Assembly (NCBI RefSeq): GCF_023051145.1
Contig: NZ_JALKFS010000005.1
Location: 3,985,733 to 4,049,732 of the forward strand
Direction of reading: 5' to 3'
Source: Williamsia sp. DF01-3
Lineage (GTDB): Bacteria; Actinomycetota; Actinomycetes; Mycobacteriales; Mycobacteriaceae
DNA length: 64,000 nucleotides
In this document: positions 1-5,674 of the stretch, piece after piece
Numbering within the stretch: position 1 is the stretch's first letter
Layout: each line of letters opens with the position of its first letter
Notes under the pieces: generated by a model
Told to the model about the DNA's origin: nothing
What the model saw: only the letters and a program-made list of their open reading frames with translations
Databases searched by the model: none
Position numbers and translations under genes: made by a program

Positions 1-741
1 TCGATCGTGCTGGCCGATCCACCTTCCGACGCGCACGACGCATACCTGCGACTGCATCTGCTCTCGCATCGACTCGTCGTTCCCCGGGGCGCAAACATGG
101 ACGGGATCTTCGGGAAGCTGTCGAATGTGGTGTGGACCAACTTCGGCCCGTGTGCCGTCGAGGGCTTCGAGCTGACCCGCGCCAAGCTCCGGGGCCGCGG
201 AGACGTCACGGTGTATGGCATCGACAAGTTCCCCAGGATGGTCGATTACGTTGTGCCGAGCGGAGTCCGGATCGCAGACGCCGGCCGCGTACGGCTCGGT
301 GCGCATCTTGCCGAGGGAACAACGGTGATGCACGAGGGTTTCGTGAACTACAACGCCGGAACACTCGGACAGTCGATGATCGAGGGCCGGATCTCTGCCG
401 GGGTCATCGTCGGCGACGGGTCGGACGTCGGCGGTGGCGCGTCGACGATGGGCACCCTGTCCGGCGGCGGCAAAGAGATCATCTCACTCGGCGAGCGTTG
501 CCTGCTGGGGGCGAACTCCGGGTGCGGTATCGCGCTCGGGGACGACTGCGTGATCGAAGCGGGCCTCTACGTGACCGCGGGCACCAAGGTCACCGGACCT
601 GACGGCACCGTGGTCAAGGCGCGGGAGTTGTCGGGCAAGAGCAACATCTTGTTCCGTCGCAACAGCACCACCGGCGCCGTGGAGGTGGCCCCATGGAAGG
701 GCGATGGAATCGAACTGAACGCGGCACTCCACGCGAACTGA
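1..741 (+). CDS. dapD: DapD, tetrahydrodipicolinate N-succinyltransferase (5' end outside window)
   Basis: This is the C-terminal 246 residues of the enzyme that succinylates 2,3,4,5-tetrahydropyridine-2,6-dicarboxylate in the succinylase branch of lysine/meso-diaminopimelate synthesis. The reading frame is open through base 1, so the start lies upstream; actinobacterial DapD is about 315 residues. The visible part has the short, turn-rich, Gly-rich hexapeptide rhythm of a left-handed beta-helix (for example [15 protein letters not shown] and [11 protein letters not shown]) and a C-terminal tail with [10 protein letters not shown] that is typical of the actinobacterial type. It faces the MNIO operon, 29 bp away. 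dapC, a later step of the same pathway, lies 2 kb downstream on the other strand. Confidence 0.93.
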
Positions 742-770: not shown

Positions 771-1130
771 TCAGTCGCCTCCGCCACCACCACACCCCGA
801 GCCACAGGAGCTCCCGGAACTACAAGAACTCCCCGAACTGCACGATCCTGAACTGCTGCACGAGCTGCTCGAGCTGCAGTTGTGTTGGTGGCCCGATCCG
901 CAGCTGTTGCTGTGCCAAGGTCCCGACGAATCGTTCCAGCTGGTGTTCCCGTGGTTCGTCGACCCATTCCCACCGCCGCCGAGATTGTTGTACGGCGAGC
1001 CGTACCAGGGTCCCCGGCCCGGAGCCCGATACCGATCGGCCGATCTGGACGAGCGGGAACCGACCACGGCGATGAGGGCGATCAACGCCCCGCCGGCCAA
1101 ACACGCACCGATCACGATCAGAATTGTCAT
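771..1130 (-). CDS. small membrane-anchored protein with period-6 Ser/Cys tail (candidate MNIO substrate)
   Basis: A 119-residue protein of no family I can name. Residues 2-24 form one hydrophobic membrane segment, followed by a short basic stretch and a Gly/Asn/Ser linker. From residue 77 the protein is nearly pure Ser, Gly and Cys, with Cys at 77, 85, 91, 97, 103, 109 and 113, so four successive spacings are exactly six. It is the last gene of the operon, starting 12 bp after the previous stop behind a GAGGCGAGG ribosome site. Tails of this kind occur in actinobacterial proteins (for example those with the TIGR04222 domain) that I recall near DUF692 genes, but the long TIGR04222 domain itself is not visible. 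I infer it is a substrate or scaffold whose Cys residues are modified by the oxidase at 1842-2726; an unmodified disulfide or metal-binding surface protein is the alternative. Confidence 0.7.
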   Translation of the reverse strand: MTILIVIGACLAGGALIALIAVVGSRSSRSADRYRAPGRGPWYGSPYNNLGGGGNGSTNHGNTSWNDSSGPWHSNSCGSGHQHNCSSSSSCSSSGSCSSGSSCSSGSSCGSGCGGGGGD

Positions 1131-1142
1131 CGCCTCGCCTCT

Positions 1143-1394
1143 CTAACCGCTGCTCCCGCAGCCACCGCCACCACTCGACGAGCCACCGCCGCCGCCACAA
1201 CTGCTTCCACACGAACCACCGCCGAACCCGCCATCGCCGTGACCTCCCCCGTCGGAACCGCCGATCCACCCGCCGCCGTCGCCGGACCAGCCTCCACGAC
1301 GCCTGCGGCGGCGCCCCGGCTGCATCGATCGGGTCAGCAAGACGAACAGCAGAGCCGGTATCCCCACCGCCAGAGCTATGAACAGTGCGTTCAT
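1143..1394 (-). CDS. small membrane-anchored Gly/Ser/Cys-tailed protein (candidate MNIO substrate)
   Basis: An 83-residue protein with a membrane segment at residues 3-21, an Arg cluster at 28-33 that would hold the start of the tail on the cytoplasmic side, and a Gly-rich tail with Cys at 62, 66 and 79. The ATG at 1394 overlaps the upstream stop (ATGA) and follows GAGGAGGGG, so this start is preferred over longer readings. Architecture matches the next gene (771-1130): N-terminal anchor, then low-complexity Cys tail. Two such small genes directly behind an MNIO and its partner fit the layout of ribosomally made, post-translationally modified peptides. The function is inferred from context only. 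Confidence 0.72.
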   Translation of the reverse strand: MNALFIALAVGIPALLFVLLTRSMQPGRRRRRRGGWSGDGGGWIGGSDGGGHGDGGFGGGSCGSSCGGGGGSSSGGGGCGSSG

Positions 1395-1864
1395 GACAAC
1401 CCCTCCTCGTCGACAACTCTTGGACGCGACCCTGACAGATGCCATGTCGCCGAACCCATTCCGATCACCAGTTCTCGACGTCCGCGGTAGCGCACCCAAG
1501 CGATCCGCCGGACACCGGCGTACACCTTTTCGACCGCGAGCCAATCTGATTCCTCCGGGTCTAGATCGTCGCGACGCTCGAGCCACAACGTGAAAGCGGC
1601 CACGTCATCATGCGCGCACCCACGAAGCGGGTTCTCTCTACCGAACTGACCGAACCGCGAACGCCAGCGCGGGAGAGCTTCGAGTTGCGGGCCGGCACGC
1701 AGCGCTGCCGACGCTCGCTTCCCGACCAGGATGTCGCTCGTCAGCAGCGATCCGACGCGGTCGAAGCCGGCGGGGACCCGGCCTGCCAACAGGTCACCCA
1801 CCACCTCGCGTTGCCGGGCGGCGAGCGCCGCGCGTTCTCGGTCAAGCGCAGTGGTCGACTTCAC
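1391..1864 (-). CDS. MNIO partner protein (HvfC/MbnC-like N-terminal region)
   Basis: A 157-residue protein. The GTG at 1864 is chosen because GAGGAAGG lies about eight bases upstream; the gene then overlaps the 3' end of the oxidase gene by 23 bp. Residues 8-60 (charged helix, LLAGRVPAGFD, then a KRASAALRAGPQLEALP helix) resemble the N-terminal domain of DUF2063/HvfC/MbnC proteins, which bind the precursor peptide and present it to the MNIO. The C-terminal half is unlike anything I recognise. It ends in an ATGA overlap with the first small Cys-tailed protein, so the two are likely translationally coupled. Assignment as peptide-recognition partner rests on weak similarity plus position. Confidence 0.65.
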   Translation of the reverse strand: MKSTTALDRERAALAARQREVVGDLLAGRVPAGFDRVGSLLTSDILVGKRASAALRAGPQLEALPRWRSRFGQFGRENPLRGCAHDDVAAFTLWLERRDDLDPEESDWLAVEKVYAGVRRIAWVRYRGRRELVIGMGSATWHLSGSRPRVVDEEGLS

Positions 1865-2726
1865 GGACCCGGCCTTCCTCGATCGCGGCGTCGATCGCGC
1901 GCAAACCCGGCAAGACCGTCTCGGGCCTGATGTCCGTGTCACGTTCGAGCATGATCCCGGGAACCCGAACCCGCGCCCGGTGGCATCCCGCCACGAACTG
2001 CGTGAGCAACGTCGTCACATCGTCCACCATCGGATCGCCATGGGTGTCCACATATCGCCCGTGGCGGTAACGGCCGCCTGCGGTGTGCACATAGGCGATG
2101 TGCGACAACGGGAATCGCAGCAACTGCCGCAGCGGATCACTCCCCTGCGCGACGGCGCTCGAGAAGAGGTTGGCCACGTCCAGAACCAACTGTGCCCCCG
2201 TGCGCCGGACGATCTCGGCGAGATAGTCGGGTTCGTCGAACTCATCCTCCGGCCAGGCGATCAGCGCCGCGATGTTCTCCAGTGCCAGCGGCACACCCAC
2301 TGCGTCTTGGGCGCGGGAGATGTTGTCACACAGGATTGTCAACGCCGCGCGTGTTCGGGGAGGCGGCAACAGGTGACCGGCTTCCAGGACGTCGCCATGT
2401 AGCGGATCGGGCGAGTCCGCGGCCCGGACGAACGCGATGTGCTCGCTGACCACCGGCGACTCGAGTTCACGTGCGAGTTCGGCCAGTCGGCGCAAGCGCC
2501 CCGGGTCGGGTAGATCGGCCCCGGCAAGCCCGAGGCTGACGCCGTGCGCCACGATCGCCACTCCCCGGGCGCGCAGATCGGTCACTCCGTCCGGCAACAC
2601 GCCGGGCGTCATGTTCTCGGCGACCACCTCGGTGAAGCGCAGGGACCCCGTATCCGCGAGATCGTTGAGCAGGTCGGAGATCGGGGCTCGCCACGCGATT
2701 GAAGATCCGGTCAGCTGTGTGCTCAT
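1842..2726 (-). CDS. DUF692-family multinuclear non-heme iron oxidase (MNIO; MbnB/TglH-like)
   Basis: A 294-residue TIM-barrel protein of the DUF692 family, whose studied members (MbnB, TglH, ChrH) use two or three iron atoms to oxidise Cys residues of peptides. All expected metal-site motifs are seen, numbered from a GTG one codon upstream: VVAENM (E39), AHGVSLGL (H62), SEH (E96, H97), LALENIA (E151, N152), LVLDVANLF (D184, N187), SHIAYVH (H210, H215), VDTHGDP (D228, H230) and MLERD (E262). The enzyme should therefore be active. The ATG at 2726 has GAGGAGG six bases upstream; the GTG at 2729 is an alternative. It is the first gene of the operon, 167 bp from dapC. The nature of the modification cannot be read from the sequence. 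Confidence 0.92.
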   Translation of the reverse strand: MSTQLTGSSIAWRAPISDLLNDLADTGSLRFTEVVAENMTPGVLPDGVTDLRARGVAIVAHGVSLGLAGADLPDPGRLRRLAELARELESPVVSEHIAFVRAADSPDPLHGDVLEAGHLLPPPRTRAALTILCDNISRAQDAVGVPLALENIAALIAWPEDEFDEPDYLAEIVRRTGAQLVLDVANLFSSAVAQGSDPLRQLLRFPLSHIAYVHTAGGRYRHGRYVDTHGDPMVDDVTTLLTQFVAGCHRARVRVPGIMLERDTDIRPETVLPGLRAIDAAIEEGRVREVDHCA

Positions 2727-2893
2727 CACGCCTCCTCACCCGGTCACGAGTGGACGGCGTCGGCCATTCGAATCCCTTGTAACGGTAGCTGTTTCGACAA
2801 TCGATCCAGCTGACTGAAGACAGCTTCGCCCAAAGTGGCCGAGATGGGGTAACGGAACGGTCTCAGATTGGCAACAGGTGATATATCTGCAGG

Positions 2894-4009
2894 TCAGGAC
2901 GCCAGGCGGGTGGCCGCAGCCGTAATCCGTTCGTCGGTGGCGGTCAGCGCGAACCGTACATGGCGCACGCCACGCGGGCCGTAGAAATCGCCTGGGGCGA
3001 CGAGGATGCCGCGATCGGCAAGCCAGTCGACGGTGTCTCGGCACGGCTCGTCCCGGGTCGCCCACAGATACAGACCTGCGGCCGATTCATCGATCCGCAG
3101 CCCTGCGCCGCGAACGGCCGCCGCGAGAGTTTCGCGGCGGGCGCGGTAACGCTCCCGCTGGGCGTCGACGTGATGATCGTCGCCGAGCGCTGCGGCCATC
3201 GCCGCCTGCATCGCGTACGGGACCATCAGGCCCGCGTGTTTGCGCACGGCCAGCAGCTCCCCGATCAGCGCCGGGTCGCCGGCGAGGAAACCAGCACGGT
3301 AGCTCGCCAGGTTCGACGTCTTGGACAGCGAATGGACCGCCAGCAGACCGGTCGGATCACCGTCGGTGACCCGTGGGTCGAGGATCGACAGCGGTTCGTC
3401 GTCCCACGCCAGGCCCAGGTAGCACTCGTCCGACACCACGATCGTCCCGCGCTCGCGCGCCCACTGGACCACCTTGCGGAGGTGCTCGAGCCCGAGGACC
3501 TTCCCGGTGGGGTTCGACGGCGAGTTCAGGTACAGGAGGGCAGGCGAACTCGGTCCGAGCTGCGTGAGCGAATCAGCGCGAACCGGCTCCGCACCGGCAA
3601 GCAGGGCACCGACTTCATAAGTGGGATAAGCGATTTCGGGAATCACCACTTGATCGCCCGGCCCGATACCCAGAGTCGACGGCAGACCGGCGATGACCTC
3701 TTTGGTGCCGATCACCGGCAGGATCATGGTCTCGTCGAGACCGGGAACCGCGTGCCGGCGCGCAAGAGCGGCCACCGCGGCGTTGCGGACCTCGAGTGTC
3801 CCGATGGTCACCGGATAGCCGGGGAAACCCGACGCCTCGGCCAGTGCCGACCGGATCAGCGGATCAACCGGGTCCACCGGCGTCCCCACGGAGAGATCGA
3901 CGATCCCGTCGCGATGCTCCGTCGCCCGAGCCTTCGCGGCCGCGAGGGTGTCCCAGGGGAAATCCGGAAGCCGCCTGGAAACCGGTTCGCGGCCACGCAC
4001 CACTGTCAT
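2894..4009 (-). CDS. dapC: DapC, N-succinyldiaminopimelate aminotransferase
   Basis: A 371-residue fold-type I PLP aminotransferase, the actinobacterial DapC type that transfers an amino group from glutamate to N-succinyl-2-amino-6-oxopimelate in diaminopimelate synthesis. The PLP site is intact: NPTG at 166-169, D194 and Y197 in SDECY, the Schiff-base lysine K230 in SLSK, and R238. It starts seven bases after the stop of fdxA, an arrangement conserved in mycobacteria (Rv1177-Rv1178), so the two are likely co-transcribed. Confidence 0.95.
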   Translation of the reverse strand: MTVVRGREPVSRRLPDFPWDTLAAAKARATEHRDGIVDLSVGTPVDPVDPLIRSALAEASGFPGYPVTIGTLEVRNAAVAALARRHAVPGLDETMILPVIGTKEVIAGLPSTLGIGPGDQVVIPEIAYPTYEVGALLAGAEPVRADSLTQLGPSSPALLYLNSPSNPTGKVLGLEHLRKVVQWARERGTIVVSDECYLGLAWDDEPLSILDPRVTDGDPTGLLAVHSLSKTSNLASYRAGFLAGDPALIGELLAVRKHAGLMVPYAMQAAMAAALGDDHHVDAQRERYRARRETLAAAVRGAGLRIDESAAGLYLWATRDEPCRDTVDWLADRGILVAPGDFYGPRGVRHVRFALTATDERITAAATRLAS

Positions 4010-4016
4010 CGGGCAG

Positions 4017-4343
4017 TCAGTCCTCGGTGTTCATCGGAGGCAGCGCTTTGACGAACGGTGAGTCGTGCGCAACCTTGCCCACCTTGCTGGCACCGCCAGG
4101 CGAACCGAGATCATCGAAGAAGTCGACGTTGGCGTTGACATACGGTTCCCACTCGTCCGGCACATCGTCTTCGTAGAAGATGGCCTCCACCGGGCACACC
4201 GGCTCGCACGCACCACAGTCGACACATTCGTCGGGCTGGATGTAAAGCATCCGTTCGCCCTCATAGATGCAGTCGACAGGGCATTCCTCGACGCATGCCT
4301 TGTCCAACACATCAACGCAAGGCTCAGCGATGATATAGGTCAC
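4017..4343 (-). CDS. fdxA: 7Fe ferredoxin (FdxC/FdxA type)
   Basis: A 108-residue soluble electron carrier with one [3Fe-4S] and one [4Fe-4S] cluster. Cys 9, 17 and 50 match the 3Fe ligands and Cys 21, 40, 43 and 46 the 4Fe ligands of Azotobacter-type ferredoxin, with the free Cys at 25 also present. The GTG start at 4343 follows GAGGAGGG. The C-terminal extension is acidic, as in mycobacterial FdxC. It heads the fdxA-dapC pair. Confidence 0.95.
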   Translation of the reverse strand: MTYIIAEPCVDVLDKACVEECPVDCIYEGERMLYIQPDECVDCGACEPVCPVEAIFYEDDVPDEWEPYVNANVDFFDDLGSPGGASKVGKVAHDSPFVKALPPMNTED

Positions 4344-4393
4344 CGACCACCCTCCTCGTCTTCGCTACTCGCGCGTGGGCTGCACGCGCTCAA

Positions 4394-4479
4394 AAGCGGG
4401 CACGCCCTCCACCACAAAAAAGGACGGCAGACTGCCCGCTTGTCGCCTCCTAGTATCCGCGTTGCACATATCAAGTCAA
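4394..4479 (-). promoter_or_regulatory. fdxA promoter and structured leader
   Basis: Read on the minus strand, TTGACT (4479-4474) and GATACT (4457-4452) are 16 bp apart and match sigma-70 type -35 and -10 elements at 5/6 and 4/6. The resulting leader of about 100 nt contains a perfect 9-bp inverted repeat, AAGCGGGCA/TGCCCGCTT (4394-4402 with 4433-4441), enclosing a short T-run. The rest of the 334-bp gap 4344-4677 shows only the AGGAG ribosome site of the cysteine dioxygenase gene. Transcription start and any attenuation role are inferred. Confidence 0.45.
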
Positions 4480-4677
4480 AACCGGGTGAGGGAAGGTGGC
4501 CTTTATCCCCATCAGTCGGGCCTCGATTGAAATCACGACGGTCCTAACCCTGTGCAGTCCGGCGTGCGCGATCCATCCTGGGTGACGTGACCGTGCGCCA
4601 GATGTCCCTGTGGAACCGAATGTGTTGTCGCTGACCCAGCGACCACGCACCATTCGACTTTCCCAGGAGCACCTGCC

Positions 4678-5223
4678 ATGACCTCCACACTGAACCGTCC
4701 GCTCTCCACCGCCGCAGTACCCACCCACCACTTCCCGACACGGTTGCGACCGGCCGATCTGCTGCGGCTGACCGACCAGAGCGCGAGTGACGTACTCGAC
4801 GGCCGCCACGACGACCTGCTGCCCAAGTACTGGGACCGGGAGAACCGGTGGGCAACGCGTCTGCATCATGACGACGATGTCGACATCTGGCTGATCAGCT
4901 GGACTCCCGACGAATCAACCGACCTGCACGACCATGCCGGTTCGCTGGGCGCGCTCACTGTGCTGTCCGGCGCACTGACCGAATACCGGTGGACCGGGTC
5001 CACCCTCCGGGCCCGCACTCTCGACGAAGGCGACCAGGCCTCGTTCCCGCTGGGCTGGGTCCACGACGTGGTCCGCAGCCCCACCCGCGAGGTGACCAGC
5101 GAGCCGACGCTCAGCGTGCACGCGTACTCACCACCGTTGACCGCGATGTCCTACTACGAAGTCACCGACTCGCAGTCACTTCGCCGGACCAAGACCGTAC
5201 TCACCGACGGCGGGGCAGCATGA
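4678..5223 (+). CDS. cysteine dioxygenase (type I)
   Basis: A 181-residue cupin that oxidises L-cysteine to cysteine sulfinate using one Fe(II). The metal triad is visible as H84 and H86 (DLHDH) and H129 (GWVHD), and the family motif VHAYSPPL (H148, Y150) is present. The start follows CCCAGGAGCACCTGCC. Its stop overlaps an ATG (ATGA), and the downstream rhodanese gene completes a small sulfur-metabolism operon. The last 18 codons lie in the first copy of a 56-bp tandem duplication. Confidence 0.93.
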   Translation: MTSTLNRPLSTAAVPTHHFPTRLRPADLLRLTDQSASDVLDGRHDDLLPKYWDRENRWATRLHHDDDVDIWLISWTPDESTDLHDHAGSLGALTVLSGALTEYRWTGSTLRARTLDEGDQASFPLGWVHDVVRSPTREVTSEPTLSVHAYSPPLTAMSYYEVTDSQSLRRTKTVLTDGGAA

Positions 5224-5281
5224 GTTCGCAGTCACTACGCCGGACCAAGACCGTACTCACCGACGGTGGGGCAGCATGAGT
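5170..5281 (+). repeat. 56-bp tandem duplication at the cysteine dioxygenase/rhodanese junction
   Basis: Bases 5170-5225 and 5226-5281 are direct repeats with only two mismatches (T/A at 5181/5237 and C/T at 5211/5267). The unit carries the 3' end of the dioxygenase gene, its ATGA stop/start overlap and the first bases of the rhodanese gene. Because 56 is not a multiple of three, copy two is read in another frame and creates a 19-codon reading frame (5220-5279). Confidence 0.95.
5220..5279 (+). other. 19-codon coupling mini-frame created by the duplication
   Basis: The ATG at 5220 overlaps the dioxygenase stop, and the frame ends in a TGA at 5277-5279 that overlaps the rhodanese ATG at 5276. 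The peptide repeats the dioxygenase C-terminus (SLRRTKTVLTDGGAA). It probably has no function of its own but lets ribosomes pass from gene one to gene two by two ATGA steps. Confidence 0.5.
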
Positions 5282-5674
5282 TCGGTGACAACACGTCTGA
5301 CGATCGATGAGATGCTGGCCCGTGCGCGGGAGGGCCTGGTGCGCCTGGAAGCGGCGGACGTACCGATCGCCGTCGAACACGGTGGCGTGCTCGTCGACAT
5401 CCGGCCCGCAGCCCAACGCGCCGCCGAGGGCGAAGTGGACGGTGCCCTTATCATCGAACGCAACGTTCTCGAATGGCGACTCGATCCCACTTCCGACGCC
5501 CGCATCACCCGAGCGGTCGACCATGACGTCCAATGGATCGTGCTGTGCTCGCAGGGATACACGTCGAGCCTGGCCGCCGCGTCGCTGCAGGAACTCGGCC
5601 TCCACCGGGCCACCGACGTGGTCGGAGGATTCGAGGCACTCGTCGAAGCCGGGCTGGCCGAGCCTGCCCGTTGA
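5276..5674 (+). CDS. rhodanese-like domain protein
   Basis: A 132-residue single-domain rhodanese, a sulfurtransferase fold that carries a persulfide on its active-site cysteine. The catalytic loop is CSQGYTSS with C91; the CH2A motif VDIRP is at 40-44. The start overlaps the stop of the upstream mini-frame. Location behind cysteine dioxygenase suggests a role in handling sulfur released by cysteine or sulfinate breakdown, which is inference. It ends seven bases before the convergent gene at 5682. Confidence 0.9.
   Translation: MSSVTTRLTIDEMLARAREGLVRLEAADVPIAVEHGGVLVDIRPAAQRAAEGEVDGALIIERNVLEWRLDPTSDARITRAVDHDVQWIVLCSQGYTSSLAAASLQELGLHRATDVVGGFEALVEAGLAEPAR

Follow-up and report, generated by a model that had tools for sequence, protein, structure and literature searches.

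A conserved four-gene MNIO unit in Williamsia with two single-helix, Cys-tailed candidate substrates, related to the MNIO/TIGR04222 systems

We analyzed a stretch of 64,000 nucleotides from the soil bacterium Williamsia sp. DF01-3 (the window; contig NZ_JALKFS010000005.1, positions 3,985,733 to 4,049,732 of the forward strand), in which four tightly packed open reading frames (ORFs), all on the minus strand, occupy positions 771-2726. They encode an MNIO enzyme of the DUF692 family, a partner protein, and two small proteins, each consisting of one predicted membrane helix followed by a tail rich in Gly, Ser, and Cys. The original prediction had described four overlapping or near-touching genes here, and the ORFs are present as it stated. 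By their coordinates, the MNIO and partner genes overlap by 23 bases, the partner gene and that of small protein 1 overlap by 4 bases, and a gap of 12 bases separates the two small genes, which together indicate a tight unit.

The first gene (1842-2726, 294 amino acids) encodes a protein that matches the Pfam family MbnB_TglH_ChrH (PF05114) with an expect value (E) of 4.1e-58 and 197 bits, against a cut-off of 25. Nine residues, H61, H96, E150, D183, H214, D227, H229, E261, and D263, are invariant in an alignment of 18 sequences that includes the window's own, and the same putative metal-site positions are also invariant in a second alignment of 13 sequences, the window's included. By analogy with known MNIOs, we take these invariant His, Asp, and Glu residues to be the metal-site residues, in agreement with the earlier description of a DUF692 oxidase with complete metal-site motifs. 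Sequence searches of solved structures matched 3bww (E 3.5e-12) and the DUF692 chain of 8hci (TglH, E 1.2e-11), and the top nine Protein Data Bank (PDB) matches of the AlphaFold2 model (predicted local distance difference test score (pLDDT) 88.1) are all MNIO entries (3bww, TglHI, MbnBC, MbnABC). The BufB model of NCBIfam (NF050167) is matched with E 7e-44, but the score of 150 bits lies below the equivalog cut-off of 310; therefore, by NCBI's rule, the enzyme is not a bufferin maturase. The genome contains a single MNIO copy, and the MNIO of W. muralis is 95-96% identical to it. We conclude that the enzyme belongs to the MNIO/DUF692 family, whose oxidation of peptide residues with iron is putative here. 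With FonB as a model, one of the invariant Asp residues may be catalytic (PMC13097082; this and the other papers are cited throughout from excerpts of their text).

The partner gene (1391-1864) begins with GTG and encodes 157 amino acids that match no Pfam and no NCBIfam family. An iterated profile (several rounds) nevertheless detected a homologue, with E between 3e-34 and 1.5e-13, in all 64 MNIO loci searched, 61 of them distinct (loci and genomes carry our own numbers, prefixed L and G). At locus L138 the match lies 3.4 kb away from the MNIO, and at L100, L101, and L031 the two proteins are fused in one ORF. The AlphaFold2 model (pLDDT 85.8) shows six helices and then three strands, an arrangement that fits the description of PME-type 2 partners given in part of Antoine et al. 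2025 (PMC12452194). Compared with 350,542 PDB chains, the model gave no match below E 0.001. Its best match was 7dz9_C of the MbnABC complex, a chain that we take to be MbnC; this match was not significant (E 0.34, probability 0.57), and hhalign gave no match between the partner and one DUF2063-like protein, two points that count against the reading preferred below. DUF2063 was found weakly in 3 of 29 partner relatives (best E 0.009) and not in the window's own partner, whose sequence returned from the PDB a single, unrelated match (E 1.3). The PME-type 2 class comprises proteins encoded with the MNIO that have a DUF2063-like helical domain, may carry a short RRE-like part, and lack the DUF2063 signature; the partner is likely PME-type 2-like.

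Both small proteins begin with a hydrophobic helix at the N-terminus; a stretch bearing Lys/Arg comes next, and a Gly/Ser linker that contains His leads into the Cys tail. Small protein 1 (1143-1394, 83 amino acids) has a helix predicted from hydropathy at residues 3-21 (1332-1388), a cluster of six Arg behind it (residues 28-33, 1296-1313), which is a putative topology determinant and possibly a recognition element, an aromatic-Gly/GGSDGGGH block, and a Gly/Ser tail with three Cys (Cys 62, 66, and 79; 1146-1214). Small protein 2 (771-1130, 119 amino acids) has its predicted helix at residues 5-23 (1062-1118), followed by a basic stretch, a Ser/Gly/His linker, and a tail (792-902) with seven Cys (Cys 77, 85, 91, 97, 103, 109, and 113). 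Among the 415 window ORFs of at least 60 amino acids, into which small protein 1 entered in its longest, GTG-start form, these two are the only ones in which a hydrophobic helix is joined to a Gly/Ser/Cys tail containing three or more Cys, and 20 shuffles of the window in 2-base blocks yielded no such ORF. The original prediction of two proteins of 83 and 119 residues with this layout thus holds.

Across species, third codon positions account for most base changes in the small-protein genes; between L084 and L086, for example, small protein 2 differs by 6, 0, and 27 changes at positions 1, 2, and 3. Distant pairs differ at many residues, with 31 synonymous and 28 replacing codons between small protein 1 of the window and that of L084. 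All three Cys of small protein 1 are retained in six of six relatives, and those of small protein 2 in proportions ranging from 5 of 7 aligned Cys to 8 of 8. The shuffles and the third-position bias make it unlikely that these are chance ORFs or that GC-rich repeats produced a frame artefact. Neither small protein matches TIGR04222 of NCBIfam, nor does any protein of the host genome; fragments of a TIGR04222 gene were ruled out, as the host has no such gene and the relatives retain their own start, helix, and stop. A known phage family was likewise ruled out by the lack of PHROGs matches at E 0.01, and a Sec signal peptide by the lack of a positive n-region.

MNIOs related to the window's, collected at E <= 1e-30, occur in 142 of the 397 genomes in a sample of the order and in 102 of the 401 in a sample of the family. 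For 20 loci of the near kind (L083-L102), about 4 kb was taken on each side (the contig of L101 is just 3,347 bases long and was taken whole), and each of the 20 carries at least one single-helix tail protein. Two near-kind loci come from other families, L157 with a tail protein and L156 without, so that 21 of 22 neighborhoods have one or two apiece; the original prediction had named the absence of such small genes beside this MNIO in related genomes as a refuting outcome, and in all but one of these loci they are present. The more distant MNIOs of family and order (L103-L142, 40 loci) have a multi-helix tail protein as neighbor in 34 cases; none was found at L107, L117, L120, L129, L130, and L140, the contig of L129 starting just before the MNIO. 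All ten multi-helix proteins run against NCBIfam match TIGR04222 above the cut-off. In genus g122 of another family (L158-L175), where the MNIOs are 50-57% identical to the window's, nine of 18 loci have a multi-helix tail ORF, downstream and with long Ser/Gly/Cys repeats, and nine have none. All 75 tail ORFs around 64 fetched MNIO loci (3 present twice) share the strand of the MNIO, 72 of them at a distance of no more than 2.5 kb and 3 farther away, and the opposite strand has none. At L141 (1331-3980), three successive tail genes lie upstream of one MNIO, and one of their products has a Ser tail with 11 Cys and Lys/Arg ahead of it.

The order of the genes varies, being MNIO-partner-small-small in Williamsia, MNIO-small-partner in Tsukamurella tyrosinosolvens and close relatives, and small-MNIO in Jongsikchunia, G016, and G486. 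The site downstream of the ferredoxin gene and dapC is common to Williamsia, Jongsikchunia, and Tsukamurella, which fits vertical descent. A T. tyrosinosolvens record named "plasmid 17" (L155, NZ_LR134459.1) carries two hypothetical genes along with fdxA-dapC-MNIO, arranged as they are elsewhere in the genus; it is perhaps a piece of chromosome labeled as a plasmid.

The type of tail follows the phylogeny of the enzyme. In an MNIO tree of 69 rows, 59 of them labeled, the distribution of single-helix (21) and multi-helix (38) neighbors requires one change, compared with a mean of about 17 after shuffling, and 19 of the 21 single-helix rows fall in one branch with a Shimodaira-Hasegawa-like approximate likelihood ratio test (SH-aLRT) support of 98. 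A second tree of 86 rows, which gained 20 rows from beyond the order and lost three outgroups, again gave one change for the single-helix rows, and 20 of these form a branch with the tail-less L156 (support 97). In both trees, L014 was labeled multi-helix by hand though its wider stretch, L120, has no tail ORF, and L123 was labeled tail-less through the distance filter although it carries one. The single-helix rows L018 and L101 lie with the outgroups on long branches, and their placement is unsure. The window-type MNIOs thus form a branch separate from a sister type, beside which a TIGR04222 protein with several helices and a comparable tail is encoded. Both kinds can share a genome: among the 14 genomes of Tsukamurella (genus g30) with a match, eight contain a near MNIO (E 1e-78 or better) together with a distant one, and in the three whose two loci were both read (G030, G451, and G532) each MNIO stands beside its own tail type.

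Enzyme and small proteins are also lost together. The MNIO is present in eight of nine Williamsia genomes and small protein 2 in the same eight; in the ninth (G476), a search for small protein 2 gives noise only (E 0.09), and tblastn of a 9-kb stretch found dapC and dapD and none of the four proteins of the unit. In a control locus (L085), tblastn detected the MNIO, the partner, and small protein 2, and missed small protein 1 there too; the absence of small protein 1 from G476 is therefore drawn from the distance between dapD and dapC, which is 89 bases. The whole block was lost together in this genome.

The tail genes in 21 of 22 loci, the correspondence between tail type and MNIO tree, and the loss in G476 support the small proteins as substrates, and the two are the best candidate substrates of this MNIO. 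Several observations pull the other way. L156 has an MNIO (60% identical) and a partner (3986-5387, oriented) and no tail gene within about 4 kb, and its genome has no TIGR04222 match; the branch that joins all 21 single-helix rows of the smaller tree has a support of only 79, and the branch with all 22 on one side in the larger tree only 87. The small proteins could instead be unmodified metal-binding or scaffold proteins while the MNIO acts elsewhere. Such independence has a precedent in 490 of 1372 surveyed genomes with TIGR04222 and no MNIO gene, according to an excerpt of PMC12452194, which indicates that this family can stand alone; the tail-less L156 and g122 loci are in line with it, and the modification of the tail Cys is one that we infer. 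We nevertheless regard it as unlikely that the small proteins are not substrates, given that tail type tracks the enzyme tree, that 72 of 75 tail ORFs lie close by on the MNIO strand, and that the block vanished as a whole from G476.

The tails themselves are of a consistent kind. In 29 single-helix proteins, partly redundant and with many near copies, each of the 134 Cys past residue 30 that has a next residue is followed by Gly or Ser, where composition alone predicts 95.7 followed by Gly, Ser, or Ala. According to PMC13097082, as excerpted, FonBC favors modified Cys that are followed by a small residue. GSDGG[SG]H, as a motif, is present in 8 of 33 single-helix and 3 of 44 multi-helix tails, some loci being counted twice, compared with 0.01 per round in shuffles; it connects some members of both tail types, not all. 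In L105, L112, and L115, which have the TIGR04222 domain (L112 being the one tested), the tail opens with Arg, Trp or Phe, and a GSDGGSHH block, as it does in the single-helix proteins of Tsukamurella.

By their size, operon context, and core residues that an enzyme could in principle modify, the small proteins pass as genes resembling precursors of ribosomally synthesized and post-translationally modified peptides (RiPPs). The succession of helix, basic and aromatic-Gly stretch, and Cys core has the outline of a RiPP precursor, and the helix might thus be a leader, with a protease cutting near the Arg cluster after modification and freeing a soluble modified peptide, so that the system would be an ordinary RiPP with a membrane-bound precursor. 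The genes that such processing calls for are not apparent: neither a protease nor an exporter is found by Pfam and NCBIfam among the six nearest neighbors in the window, one of which is unmatched, nor was either recognized when the ORFs of 15 related loci were inspected visually, for which no family search was made. Of the alternatives considered here, cleavage is the one we find least probable.

The charge distribution bears on the orientation of the tails. There is no Lys or Arg before the helix in 28 of the 29 single-helix rows, and 3-9 lie within the 30 residues after it in 28 of 29; the starts of the two odd rows, L086_1 and L099_1, were called too long. By the positive-inside rule, the positively charged flank of a membrane helix stays cytoplasmic. 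With Lys/Arg after a sole helix, the predicted orientation is therefore N-out/C-in, so that the tails of the single-helix proteins would lie in the cytoplasm and not at the cell surface. The description of a surface-displayed protein in the original prediction does not agree with this. For 44 multi-helix proteins, a like count of Lys/Arg on either side of the last hydrophobic stretch predicts an outside tail for 39 and an inside tail for 2, with 3 undecided, consistent with the periplasmic tails predicted for TIGR04222 proteins in part of PMC12452194. The two types thus seem, as far as charge can tell, to show a similar tail on opposite faces of the membrane.

This prediction has its own counterweights. 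Small protein 2 of L084-L086 has three Lys/Arg after the helix balanced by three Asp/Glu, a weak charge signal; hydropathy and charge counts are simple rules and not a trained predictor; and a cytoplasmic tail breaks with the sister family, whose tails are mostly predicted to lie outside. The same enzyme and substrates could accordingly operate with tails that are translocated and displayed outside, as suggested by the predicted periplasmic tails of the TIGR04222 proteins, the excess of Lys/Arg before the last hydrophobic stretch in 39 of 44 multi-helix proteins, and the activity of bufferins in the periplasm (PMC12452194, excerpt). Export would, however, have to carry across the membrane the basic residues that follow the helix in the single-helix proteins, and the N-termini of these proteins show no positive n-region such as a Sec signal has. 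We think external display improbable as well, although of the three alternatives it is the one to which we would give most weight.

The reading that we prefer, and to which we give an even chance, is that the MNIO and its partner oxidize Cys residues of tethered, inward-facing tails, so as to form a metal-binding patch on the inner face of the membrane; here we infer the modification, its chemistry, the metal binding, and the function. The MNIO and partner would act as one enzyme on the Cys of the Gly/Ser/Cys tails of the adjoining single-helix proteins; in favor of such a pair are the partner homologue at all 64 loci, the fusions at L100, L101, and L031, and chain C of MbnABC as the best, if nonsignificant, PDB match. 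The helix would insert N-out/C-in, leaving the tail within reach of the enzyme in the cytoplasm, where the Lys/Arg stretch would keep it close beneath the membrane, and the aromatic-Gly block between this stretch and the Cys repeat may serve as a recognition element. The product would be a row of Cys-derived heterocycles, for which 5-thiooxazole is a first guess, and these, with the His of the tail, might bind copper or another soft metal and form a tethered metal trap. Known MNIO-partner pairs convert Cys into copper-binding 5-thiooxazole (excerpts of PMC13097082 and PMC13419390), and HvfB attains its active iron state only with its partner (PMC13419390, excerpt). A role in copper stress fits poorly with two observations. 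No metal gene adjoining the operon was seen among the nearest neighbors in the window, and in T. tyrosinosolvens dapC and the MNIO gene overlap by one base, which fits constitutive better than metal-induced expression. We more tentatively entertain a wider proposal, which we consider possible rather than probable: MNIO-modified single-helix microproteins would never leave the membrane or the cell, their oxidized Cys/His tails lastingly providing the cytoplasmic face with a patch that binds metal (or is redox-active), and in Tsukamurella their own MNIO subfamily would work separately beside a paralogue that serves outward-facing TIGR04222 tails.

The unit is flanked by dapC and the ferredoxin gene (2894-4343, minus strand) on one side and by dapD (7-741, plus strand, its start outside the window) on the other, and these genes match the NCBIfam equivalogs DapC_actino, FdxA_Actino, and DapD_actino above the cut-off. 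By Pfam and NCBIfam, the nearest neighbors are DapD, DapC, the ferredoxin, a CDO_I protein, a rhodanese-like protein, and one unmatched ORF. The intergenic stretch 5' of the MNIO gene, between it and dapC (2727-2893, minus strand), contains a block kept in six Williamsia, with the inverted repeat CGAATC...GATTCG in four of the six, and is a possible promoter or operator; a promoter and terminator scan gave no sigma-70-like match in it. Farther out, we spotted by eye an imperfect tandem duplication of about 56 bases (5166-5279), which covers the end of the cysteine-dioxygenase-like ORF (4678-5223, CDO_I) and the start of the rhodanese-like ORF (5276).

The known MNIO substrates in Table 1 of PMC12452194, one of its excerpted parts, are peptides, and membrane proteins have so far the rank of candidates only. 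With its three or four genes and its tiny tethered substrates, a unit of this type makes it easy to ask whether membrane proteins are modified in place by MNIOs and what a tail of modified Cys does when it faces inward, and the paired MNIO and tail types of Tsukamurella offer a natural test of enzyme-substrate specificity. If substrates are indeed retained in the membrane, MNIOs would be general protein-modifying enzymes, beyond the making of exported peptides. The opposite faces suggested for the two tail types are the finding that most deserves a test.

Among known systems, methanobactin MbnABC shares the MNIO fold, and chain C of its complex is the best, nonsignificant PDB match of the partner model. 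MbnA, a short peptide, is released from the cell, whereas the small proteins of the window carry a predicted lasting membrane anchor. Methanobactin has a chalkophore role (PMC12452194, excerpt). The bufferins and captophorins (BufABC, HvfABC, FonABC) resemble the unit in that an MNIO and a partner act on Cys, in the BufB match of the enzyme, and, for FonBC, in the preference around the modified Cys, which is comparable with the Gly/Ser after the Cys of window-type tails (PMC13097082, in part). They differ by having Sec signals and full DUF2063 partners, as described in parts of PMC12452194 and PMC13097082, unlike the signal-less small proteins and the short partner found here. TglHI and the pearlins share the MNIO fold and the PME-type 2 class of partner, yet TglH acts on a C-terminal Cys added to a scaffold peptide, whereas the Cys of the window's tails are genetically encoded and internal (both points on TglHI from excerpts of PMC12452194). 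The adjamnio-V group of the same paper, again in excerpt, comprises very small proteins encoded directly after the MNIO, as are those of the Tsukamurella type, with which it may overlap. For precursors without a signal peptide, the survey as excerpted in PMC12452194 collected genes preceding the MNIO, whereas most small genes of the window type come after it. We found neither a minimal one-helix variant without the TIGR04222 domain nor a paper on an MNIO in Tsukamurella or DUF692 in Williamsia in the open-licence literature.

The closest comparison is with the TIGR04222 membrane proteins with Ser/Gly/Cys tails, which, in the relevant excerpts of Antoine et al. 2025 (PMC12452194), are accompanied by MNIOs and PME-type 2 partners, are proposed as MNIO substrates, and come mostly from Actinomycetota. 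The unit shares with these systems the MNIO, a partner of the same family, and a membrane protein with a Gly/Ser/Cys tail and no Sec signal, and small protein 1 shares its GSDGG[SG]H block with the TIGR04222 proteins of L105, L112, and L115. It differs in that its proteins are single-helix and lack the TIGR04222 domain, which is missing from the host genome altogether, in the predicted inside location of the tail, in the separate branch of its MNIOs, and in small genes that often follow the MNIO. The "candidate new RiPP-like system" of the original prediction accordingly stands as a conserved MNIO operon with Cys-tailed candidate substrates, and falls as something new in kind, given the TIGR04222 precedent in the same excerpts. 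To call it a wholly new system is too strong; the unit is a real and conserved, stripped-down relative of the MNIO/TIGR04222 systems already proposed.

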